DNA from: an uncultured Pelagibacteraceae bacterium | GTDB lineage: Bacteria > Pseudomonadota > Alphaproteobacteria > Pelagibacterales > Pelagibacteraceae | NCBI GenBank assembly: GCA_902580895.1 | Contig: CACHMJ010000002.1 | Span: 1 to 64,000, forward strand | Direction of reading: 5' to 3' | Length of the DNA: 64,000 nt | Shown here: positions 15,750-19,089 of the stretch, one piece after another | Layout of the letters: every line of letters starts with the position of its first letter | How positions within the stretch are numbered: position 1 is the first letter of the stretch | The notes under the pieces: generated by a model | Seen by the model: the letters and a program-made list of their open reading frames with translations, nothing else | Databases searched by the model: none | What the model was told of the DNA's origin: nothing | Program-made: the position numbers and the translations under genes

Positions 15750-16103
15750 TTAATTCTTTTTGTTATCGTTATCTACGACTAAACAAATCTCAGATTTTGT
15801 CAAAAATCTTTTTCCAGTTCCATTATCTAAAGAAAACATTCCACCTATACCCTTAACTGCATCTATAGTTAAATCAGTATGTTTCCATTTTTCATATTGG
15901 TCATCATTCATGTAAAAAGGCAGTCCACCAATTTCACCTAATTTTACATCACTTGAACCAACCATATATTCATTTCTTGGATAGCACATTGGTGCACTTC
16001 CATCACAACATCCACCAGATTGGTGAAATAATAGCTCCTCACCATGTTGAGCTTTGAGCTCTTCAATTAATTTTAGTGCTGAGTCTGTTGCTTTTACTTT
16101 CAT
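15750..16103 (-). CDS. DUF779 family protein (start re-assigned; the track start at 16136 lies in a hairpin)
   Basis: HQSGGCCDGSAPMCYPRNEY, GTGKRFLTKSEIC; adjacent to an aldehyde dehydrogenase, a common DUF779 context. Confidence 0.85.
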   Translation of the reverse strand: MKVKATDSALKLIEELKAQHGEELLFHQSGGCCDGSAPMCYPRNEYMVGSSDVKLGEIGGLPFYMNDDQYEKWKHTDLTIDAVKGIGGMFSLDNGTGKRFLTKSEICLVVDNDNKKN

Positions 16104-16104
16104 A

Positions 16105-16136
16105 AAAAATATGGCCCGTGATTCCTCACGGGCCAT
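16105..16136 (-). terminator. Rho-independent terminator/attenuator-like hairpin between aldehyde dehydrogenase and DUF779 genes
   Basis: On the minus strand: ATGGCCCGTGA-GGAA-TCACGGGCCAT (11-bp perfect, GC-rich stem) then ATTTTTT. Confidence 0.8.
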
Positions 16137-16153
16137 TATATATTAGATTGTTT

Positions 16154-17899
16154 TTAAAAGAAGCCTAATTTCTTTTCACTGTAAGACACGTGAAGATTCT
16201 TCACTTGTCTGTAGTGGTTAAGCATCATTTTATGTGTTTCTCTTCCGATACCAGATTGTTTGTATCCACCGAATGCAGCATGTGCAGGATAAGCGTGGTA
16301 ACAGTTAGTCCATACTCTACCAGCTTGTATTTCTCTACCCATTCTGTAAGCGATATTTCCATTTCTAGTCCAAACACCAGCTCCTAAACCATAAAGAGTG
16401 TCATTAGCAATTTGTAATGCTTCTGCCTCATCTTTAAACTTAGTTACTGATACAACTGGTCCAAAAATTTCTTCTTGGAAGATACGCATTGAGTTATTAC
16501 CCTCAAAAATAGTTGGTTCAATGTAGTTTCCTTTTTCTAAACCACTATTGATTTTTGCAACATTTCCACCACATAGAACTTTGGCACCTTCTTTCTTACC
16601 TAAATCTAGATAAGATTTGATTTTTTCCATTTGTTCTAATGAAGCTTGTGCTCCAATCATTGTTTCCATTTTTAAAGGATTGTCTTGCTTAACAGCTTTT
16701 GTTCTAGCAATAGCTTTCTCCATGAACTTATCATAGATAGACTCTTGAACTAGCACTCTGCTTGGGCAAGTACAAACTTCACCTTGGTTTAATGTGAACA
16801 TTGCAAAACCTTCTAAGCATTTATCTAAGAAGTCATCATCTTTTGCCATGACGTCTTCAAAGAAAATATTAGGAGATTTTCCACCCAGCTCTAACGTAAT
16901 TGGTATTAAGTTTTGAGATGCATATTGCATAATCAATCTACCAGTTGTTGTTTCACCAGTGAAAGCAATCTTTTTGATTCTTTTTGATGATGCTAGTGGT
17001 TTTCCAGCTTCTAAACCAAAGCCACTTACTACGTTAACTACTCCTGGAGGTAATAAATCTCCAATTAGTTCCATAAGTAACATGATTGATGCTGGTGTTT
17101 GCTCAGCTGGTTTTAGCACTACACAGTTTCCTGCTGCTAAAGCTGGAGCAAGTTTCCAAGTTGCCATTAGTAATGGAAAGTTCCATGGTATAATTTGTCC
17201 AACTACACCTAGTGGTTCTGGAATGTGGTAAGAATATTCACTGTTACTAATTTCAGCAACTGAACCTTCCTCTGCTCTGATTACTCCAGCAAAATATCTC
17301 CAATGATCTATTACTAGTGGTAAATCAGCAGCCATACATTCTCTAATTGGCTTACCATTATCTAAACATTCAGCTGTTGCTAATACATTAAGATTTTTCT
17401 CAATGACATCTGCAATTTTAAGAAGAATGTTTGATCTTTCCGTAATTGAAGTTTTACCCCAAGTTGGGAAAGCCGCGTGAGCTGCATCTAATGCTGCATC
17501 TACGTCTTTTTCATTTGATCGCGCAACTGAACAGATTACTTCATTTGAAATCGGAGATGTATTATCAAAATACTTTCCAGATTTTGGCTCTACAAACTTA
17601 CCGTTAATGTAGTTCCCGTATTTTGCTTTGAACGGGAATTTTACTTTCAAATGAGAAGTATCTAATACAGATGACACTTTCATAGCTTCTGCACTCATTT
17701 TTTTTACTCCTCTTGTTTTTTTTATTGATTTAAGCTTATTATTTTTTCTAGATATTTTAGAACGCTTCTTAGTCGCAGACTTTTTTGTCCTAACTTTTTT
17801 TTTCGTTCTTATTTTTTTTCTAGAAGATTTAACCAATTTAGTTTTTTTTTTATTGGTTTTTGGCTTAGCTTTTTTCTTTCTTTTAGTAGCCATAGCCAA
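16154..17899 (-). CDS. Aldehyde dehydrogenase (acetaldehyde dehydrogenase-like) with Lys-rich N-terminal extension
   Basis: [58 protein letters not shown]; residues 1-67 strongly basic; internal ATG at 17698 preceded by AGGAG. Confidence 0.88.
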
Positions 17900-18050
17900 T
17901 TAAACTCGTAAATGAGGGTAGTGTCTATTTTTATAAAATTTTATTTACTACTTATAATTGAACAAAATACTATATGTTGTATCTATAGAAAATTAATTAA
18001 TATTTGTAGATATAATTAATAAAGATTTTTAATTAAAATTGAGTATAAAG

Positions 18051-18100
18051 GTTTTGCCGATTTGATCCTATTGCGGGCTTTAACTGCTAAAACGGAAATC
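18051..18100 (+). ncRNA. SAM-II-like S-adenosylmethionine riboswitch aptamer (first of tandem)
   Basis: gttttGCCGATTTGATCCTATTGCGGGCtttaactGCTAAAACGGAAATC: P1 GCC/GGC, pseudoknot GATTT/AAATC and CC/GG, conserved GCTAAA. Confidence 0.75.
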
Positions 18101-18116
18101 CCATAATAATCAATCT

Positions 18117-18175
18117 GTAGGCATTTGAACTATATTGTGCGCCTTGCATAAAGCTAAAGTACTAAAAAAGTGAGG
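18117..18175 (+). ncRNA. SAM-V-like S-adenosylmethionine riboswitch aptamer (second of tandem, overlapping the ribosome-binding site)
   Basis: AGGCATTTGAACTATATTGTGCGCCTTGCATAAAGCTAAAGTACTAAAAAAGTGAGG: P1 AGGC/GCCT, pseudoknot ACT/AGT, conserved GCTAAA; ends at SD GAGG 5 nt before ATG 18181. Confidence 0.82.
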
Positions 18176-18180
18176 ATTTT

Positions 18181-19089
18181 ATGGATTTAAATTTTTTCAA
18201 CCAAACAAGAATTTTAGATGGTGGTATGGGCCAGGAATTGCTTGCAAGAGGTATGGAGCCTAATGGAACTTTGTGGAGTGCGAATGCGTTACTTCATGAA
18301 AAATATCATCAGTTATTATTGGATACACATTTAGACTTTATCAAGTCTGGTGCTGAGGTAATTGTAACGACTACATTCACAACTAGAAAGATAAGATTAA
18401 AAGATAATAATGTTGAAGATAAATACGAGTATTTGAATATTAAAGCAGGTGAAATAGCTCAAAAAGCAAAAAAACAATATCCTAAAACTCTTGTTGCTGG
18501 TGGATTGCCACCTCAATATTTAACTTACGAGGCTGATACAAGATCAGATAAAGAAATAGAGGATAATTTTTATAGTCAAGCAAAGCTATTAAACCCATAT
18601 ATTGATTTTTTCTATTTTGATGTTTTAAGCAGTGTAAGAGAATTTAAAATTGCTATAGAAAGTATAAAAGAATTTAATAAACCATATTTAATTGGAGCTC
18701 ATATATCAGAGGGTACAAATTTACCTAGTGGTGAAAAAATTTCTGAAATTATTAACAAAATTAATCATGAAAAATTACTAGGAATAATTTTATCATGTAT
18801 TTCCCCAGAAAATTATGATTTAAATCTTAAAGAAATAAAAAGCTTAAATATTCCATTTGGTTTCAAACTAAATGGTTTTGTGAAAACTAATCCAAAACCA
18901 AATTATACTGGAACATACAATAAAAGCAAAACAGGAAATCCAAATGAATTTCTTGGGGTAAGAAAAGATTTAACTCCAGAAAAAATGTTAAAATTTGCAA
19001 AAAAATTTAAAGATGCTGGAGCTACAATTATTGGTGGTTGCTGTGAAACTACACCATTACATATTAAAGCTTTTTCTAAGCTTAAGTAG
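18181..19089 (+). CDS. bhmT: Homocysteine S-methyltransferase family (betaine--homocysteine methyltransferase-like)
   Basis: ILDGGMGQELLARG, Zn ligands LSCIS and GGCCETTP; preceded by SAM riboswitches. Confidence 0.82.
   Translation: MDLNFFNQTRILDGGMGQELLARGMEPNGTLWSANALLHEKYHQLLLDTHLDFIKSGAEVIVTTTFTTRKIRLKDNNVEDKYEYLNIKAGEIAQKAKKQYPKTLVAGGLPPQYLTYEADTRSDKEIEDNFYSQAKLLNPYIDFFYFDVLSSVREFKIAIESIKEFNKPYLIGAHISEGTNLPSGEKISEIINKINHEKLLGIILSCISPENYDLNLKEIKSLNIPFGFKLNGFVKTNPKPNYTGTYNKSKTGNPNEFLGVRKDLTPEKMLKFAKKFKDAGATIIGGCCETTPLHIKAFSKLK

Follow-up and report, generated by a model that had tools for sequence, protein, structure and literature searches.

A compact, putative SAM-II-type aptamer adjoins SAM-V in mmuM and metY leaders of Pelagibacter

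Results

Architecture of the mmuM leader

The window, meaning the whole stretch of DNA analysed here, spans 64,000 nucleotides from an uncultured Pelagibacteraceae bacterium and contains a 281-nt intergenic region (17900-18180) that precedes a homocysteine S-methyltransferase gene. The encoded protein shares 79% identity over 259 aa with the product of the gene that follows the HTCC1062 mmuM leader, and by sequence the gene (18181-19089) is the orthologue of HTCC1062 mmuM. Sulfur limitation de-represses the target genes, among others, in HTCC1062 (PMC5069961). On the minus strand, positions 16154-17899 encode an ExaC-like aldehyde dehydrogenase, whose open frame has a long Lys/Arg-rich N-terminal extension, and a DUF779 gene (15750-16136, minus strand) lies downstream of it.

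The original prediction placed two elements of the same layout in this leader; both are there, within 17900-18180, with the bounds of element 1 (E1) better set at 18056-18096. The features of the leader are as follows.

18044-18049, + strand: -10 promoter element TATAAA, with predicted transcription start at G18056
18056-18096, + strand: E1, putative compact SAM-II-type aptamer (R1 covariance model; compensatory changes in P1 and P2a; core recurring in mmuM and metY leaders)
18056-18058/18076-18078, + strand: E1 P1, GCC/GGC, 3 bp
18061-18063, + strand: E1 L1 third strand, UUU
18066-18068/18094-18096, + strand: E1 P2a, UCC/GGA
18071-18074 with 18086-18087/18089-18090, + strand: E1 P2, UUGC with GC-AA
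18086-18092, + strand: E1 GCUAAAA
18097-18118, + strand: linker, predicted anti-aptamer strand, 22 nt (from duplex energy against E1 nt 1-23)
18100-18102 with 18075-18077, + strand: predicted pairing of linker CCC with E1 GGG
18104-18108 with 18069-18073, + strand: predicted pairing of linker UAAUA with E1 UAUUG
18109-18113 with 18062-18066, + strand: predicted pairing of linker AUCAA with E1 UUGAU
18110-18173, + strand: SAM-V riboswitch RF01826 (cmscan score 67.6 bits against a gathering score of 41; E 7.1e-9 over 64 kb)
18119-18122/18141-18144, + strand: SAM-V P1 (residue roles from PMC6061858)
18137-18140/18159-18162, + strand: SAM-V P2 (residue roles from PMC6061858)
18163, + strand: SAM-V U18163, putative SAM-adenine partner by analogy with 6FZ0 (PMC6061858)
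18129-18131/18169-18171, + strand: SAM-V P2a, ACU and AGU, which can pair; abuts the Shine-Dalgarno sequence (SD)
18172-18175, + strand: SD GAGG, 5 nt before the ATG (18181) and directly 3' of the P2a strand
18181-19089, + strand: mmuM-type homocysteine S-methyltransferase gene, 302 aa (PF02574, E 4.5e-52)

Element 2 is an ordinary SAM-V riboswitch

Element 2 is certainly SAM-V: its match to RF01826 is full length (model positions 1-66), and at the Rfam gathering threshold it is the one RNA recovered in the whole window. The original prediction of a SAM-V element before a homocysteine methyltransferase is thus confirmed by RF01826 for the RNA and by PF02574 for the gene, and the ACT/AGT pairing said to run into the SD can indeed form, next to GAGG. 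P2a and the SD fall within ~10 nt of the start codon, in the SAM-V arrangement. The crystallised SAM-V is a metY copy (6FZ0, PMC6061858), and against it the window element, itself a full family member, differs in P2a, where 3 bp (ACU/AGU) are possible and the SD follows at once, whereas the known P2a has 2 bp to which the SD contributes. SAM-V closes the SD when it binds SAM, an occlusion mechanism (PMC6061858), and selective SAM binding that represses translation is known for HTCC1062 SAM-V homologues (PMC6061858, PMC5069961). This OFF mechanism is established for the homologues and, by analogy, would apply to the window copy.

E1 resembles a shortened SAM-II riboswitch

E1 is laid out as GCC-GAUUUGAUCC-UAUUGCG-GGC-UUUAACU-GCUAAAA-C-GGA and reads as a SAM-II riboswitch in which P1 is reduced to 3 bp and L3 is shortened. 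With SAM-II of the metX type (RF00521, RF01726; PDB 2QWY) it shares P1, the GAUUU..AUUGC and GCUAAA core and a short P2a, but its P1 and L3 are shorter, it falls below Rfam detection, and within the tandem it is without an expression platform of its own. A check by the Rfam SAM covariance models, which identified element 2, failed on E1: neither RF00521 nor RF01726 matched it at E<=10, and E1 stays below the Rfam gathering score for SAM-II. On a 75-nt stretch containing E1, the best Rfam match was SAM-V, at 13.7 bits (E 3.2). That Rfam misses E1 is not evidence against SAM-II membership, because the published bhmT SAM-II of HTCC1062 itself reaches only 15.5 bits with RF00521, where the cut-off is 36. 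Across 150 relatives, every RF00521 match listed for the Pelagibacter genus lay below this cut-off. The genome from which the window derives (G000) also carries a metX SAM-II on contig 3 (63373-63447; L004, L157) that scores 29.2 bits, again below 36.

A covariance model, R1, was built from 24 SAM-II riboswitches (metX and bhmT), almost all of them of SAR11 relatives, which were located by the GATTT..TTGC..GCTAAA core in stretches around RF00521 matches. R1 scored E1 at 27.2 bits (E 9.7e-8 in the 361-nt leader, E 2.5e-5 over 95 kb), with the next best place in the window at 16.1 bits and the SAM-V element at 13.2 bits. On HTCC1062, it gave 24.6 bits for the E1 of mmuM, 18.1 for that of metY and 61.2 for the bhmT SAM-II. 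The SAM-contacting motifs GAUUU, AUUGC and GCUAAA (contacts from PMC11508383 and PMC6061858) are present in E1 and invariant in all 50-56 distinct sequences. Together with the compensatory changes given below, the R1 score and these pocket motifs uphold the proposal that element 1 is SAM-II-like. By sequence, E1 is a compact SAM-II-family aptamer that Rfam misses, and it would be expected to bind SAM. Leaders of metX in other SAR11 genera (L222, L223, L217-L219, L221) carry SAM-II with a shortened L3, between canonical SAM-II and E1 in form.

Conservation and covariation of E1

The conservation of E1 is far beyond chance, with 30 columns invariant across 56 distinct sequences. Over 50 copies, the P1/P2/P2a pseudoknot is paired in 96% of cells, P1 in 100% and P2a (UCC/GGA) in 99%. 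E1 shows hardly any variation, and compensatory changes are accordingly few: P1 has AU instead of GC in HTCC1062 mmuM, and P2a has AU instead of UA in three metY copies (L224, L225 and L226), which read ACC/GGU instead of UCC/GGA. A further metY copy, L227, has UCC/GGU at P2a and looks like an evolutionary intermediate. The P2 core is invariant in the copies compared and so carries no covariation signal; its outermost pair (25-37) forms in 30/50. A P1 of only 3 bp counts against the two-aptamer switch discussed below.

Two pairings had been proposed for element 1. The first, CC with GG, stands as P2a (TCC/GGA), whereas comparison of relatives did not sustain the GATTT/AAATC helix, whose middle pair is absent in 25/50, which shows no two-sided change and which does no better than shuffles. 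We also set aside a pairing of the two bases that immediately precede GGC and GCUAAA: in one count A always occurred with U, yet these bases are unpaired in 20/50.

E1 probably begins at the transcription start

At 79 distinct E1 loci, positions -12 to -7 before the G of GCC read T (.91), A (.92), T (.61), A (.91), A (.67) and A/T. Since the first G of E1 lies at this fixed distance from a -10 element, E1 probably starts at +1, which in the window is predicted to be G18056. Relatives of the mmuM leader show TTGATT-17-TATAAT-6-G, and the -35 is weak in the window.

A search for intrinsic terminators in the window leader returned 0 terminator-like sites. Among 65 distinct linkers of compact tandems, 18-26 nt long, only 2 contain a run of 5 or more U, and the classical bhmT tandems that served as controls have a hairpin and U tract between SAM-II and SAM-V. 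A transcriptional role of E1 by intrinsic termination, which the original prediction had thought possible for the upstream aptamer, is not supported because no terminator is present.

The tandem recurs before mmuM and metY

The two-aptamer leader is real and conserved. Together, E1 and SAM-V make up a compact unit that precedes mmuM and metY, and SAM-V accompanies E1 in 76 of 79 distinct leaders. E1 was found in 163 of the 399 Pelagibacter genomes searched (29/57 of those at least 90% complete) and SAM-V in 184 of the 399. The exact 23-nt E1 core pattern occurs in 126 of 339 Pelagibacter genomes; none of the matches listed in that same search was to the reversed 23-nt control. Outside the genus only weak E1 matches were seen, and those inspected were mostly metX SAM-II leaders. 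In viruses (IMG/VR contigs), the exact E1 core was absent.

The genome of the window itself holds a second compact tandem on contig 14 (8020-8138; L001, L152), before a metY gene of the O-acetylhomoserine sulfhydrylase type. This copy is 86% identical in DNA, and its SAM-V scores 85.4 bits. The two elements also occur apart: three mmuM leaders (L027, L036 and L042) have an intact E1 and no recognisable SAM-V, and four metY leaders have SAM-V without E1. In L036 (2434-2500), UCGG, the complement of E1 CCGA, lies ~12 nt before the start codon of mmuM, and here E1 could act directly on translation.

The description of SAM-V came from Ca. P. ubique, in its metY, mmuM and bhmT leaders (Poiata 2009, as cited in PMC9481103, PMC2704228 and PMC5069961), and the metY and mmuM leaders of HTCC1062 are listed as SAM-V only (PMC2704228, PMC5069961). 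We took genome G462 as HTCC1062, its SAM-V and bhmT SAM-II positions lying inside the published intergenic coordinates (PMC2704228). In both of these leaders E1 adjoins SAM-V, at 1005761-1005813 for metY (63.1 bits) and 732854-732906 for mmuM (55.4 bits), a few bases before it.

Linker complementarity to the 5' half of E1

Complementarity between the linker and the 5' half of E1 exceeds chance. The duplex energy of the window linker against E1 nt 1-23 beats that of dinucleotide-shuffled linkers at p = 0.019; the energy-based test was the third form tried, which makes this and the following p values somewhat optimistic. After clustering, 11/12 mmuM linkers reached p<=0.1 (0/12 with reversed E1 1-23 as control), as did about half of the 16 metY linkers (control 0). 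An earlier form of the test, based on the longest complementary run, was weak. UCGG, which complements E1 CCGA, is present in 32/32 distinct metY linkers and in 0/4 of the metY leaders that have SAM-V but not E1. Complementarity is kept via changes on both sides in HTCC1062 mmuM (P1 ACC, linker UUGGU) and in L149 (P1 GCU, linker UUAGU). The hairpin predicted for mmuM leaders draws in the 5' strand of SAM-V P1 as well (GGC 18120-18122 with GCC 18056-18058). When the full window leader is folded, pairing of the linker with E1 is predicted with a probability of only 0.2-0.4.

Plain folding energies were not used as evidence: the whole leader does not stand out from shuffles (z-score 0.07), and for E1 with its linker the excess over shuffles is modest in mmuM leaders and absent in metY leaders.

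Discussion

We think it rather probable that the mmuM leader works, as a whole, as a two-aptamer SAM OFF-switch. E1 has neither a terminator nor a start codon of its own and therefore most likely acts through the linker. In the mechanism that we propose, transcription would begin with the first base of E1, G18056, and proceed through the 22-nt linker into SAM-V. At low SAM, the linker would pair with the 5' half of E1, in a hairpin that in mmuM leaders would also take the 5' strand of SAM-V P1, so that neither aptamer would be folded and mmuM would be on. Binding of SAM to E1 would free the linker, so that SAM-V could fold and occlude the ribosome-binding site; at high SAM, SAM-V P2a would thus cover this site and shut off the SD, leaving mmuM untranslated. 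In the bhmT tandem, the linker blocks SAM binding by SAM-II, which is unresponsive when linker and SAM-V are attached (PMC11508383), and such masking fits a competition between linker and E1. The four metY leaders that do without E1 count against such a switch. Taken by itself, the coupling of E1 to SAM-V by the linker is a tentative proposal. We advance with slightly greater reserve its most complete form, in which a SAM-II-type aptamer at +1 of a terminator-less tandem would license SAM-V folding via a shared linker hairpin, as one translational switch that many SAR11 genomes would use for mmuM and metY and that would have been overlooked in HTCC1062.

The two could instead be independent SAM aptamers, with E1 acting alone on transcription or mRNA decay, through Rho-dependent termination, promoter-proximal pausing or 5'-end protection, much like the published bi-mechanism tandems minus their intrinsic terminator. 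We regard this as unlikely, although not negligibly so: E1 sits at the predicted +1, it persists without a recognisable SAM-V in three mmuM leaders, and these bacteria also have bi-mechanism tandems, the classical ones of bhmT, in which a hairpin and U tract follow SAM-II (PMC9481103). Set against these points are the window's freedom from terminator-like sites, the near absence of U runs from the linkers and a linker that is conserved and complementary to E1, for which an independent E1 would have no need. E1 might also be a relic, as its very short P1 and the SAM-unresponsive SAM-II domain of bhmT with linker and SAM-V attached (PMC11508383) could suggest, but the pocket motifs are its most conserved part, which is unlike a relic and makes this reading improbable. 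That E1 is a DNA operator for a methionine repressor at the transcription start, its likeness to SAM-II a coincidence, would suit a 23-nt almost invariant block at a fixed 6 nt from the -10 element, but is very hard to reconcile with a significant SAM-II covariance-model match, with motifs that match SAM-II in their order, with the two-sided changes seen in P1 and P2a, and with the intermediate forms in metX leaders of other SAR11 genera.

Our preferred reading, a two-aptamer E1/SAM-V switch, bears comparison with known tandems. According to a 2022 review (PMC9481103), there are 149 SAM-II/SAM-V tandems in all, and in the original 120 SAM-II always precedes an intrinsic terminator. The bhmT tandem of Pelagibacter ubique (Poiata 2009, as cited in PMC9481103; PMC11508383) has in common with the window the order SAM-II then SAM-V, the placing of SAM-V over the RBS, a methionine-making gene and the bacterial group. 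Its SAM-II has, in the same accounts, a P1 of 4-5 bp followed by a terminator hairpin and U tract, whereas in the window tandem P1 of E1 has 3 bp, L3 is shorter, the linker measures 22 nt and a terminator is lacking, and the type serves mmuM and metY. The intrinsic terminator between aptamers that marks the published bi-mechanism tandems is absent from the window leader. The original prediction that this is not a new class holds for the aptamers; the compact, terminator-less mmuM/metY arrangement differs from the published SAM-II/SAM-V tandems (PMC9481103). Among the papers compared, which cover Poiata 2009 through later citations (PMC9481103, PMC2704228 and PMC5069961), this arrangement is apparently undescribed. 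If coupling is right, the likeness to same-ligand tandems (glycine, guanidine-II) lies in two aptamers, one ligand and one translational output; those tandems pair like aptamers, whereas the window would join two related but distinct types by a competing linker hairpin.

If a second aptamer heads the metY and mmuM leaders, studies of SAM-V alone will have used part of the regulator. Pairing of the linker with E1 would offer a testable reason for the puzzling silencing of SAM-II by the linker in the bhmT tandem. In the SAR11 genus studied here, which belongs to a group abundant in the ocean, SAM-II escapes the cut-offs of Rfam.
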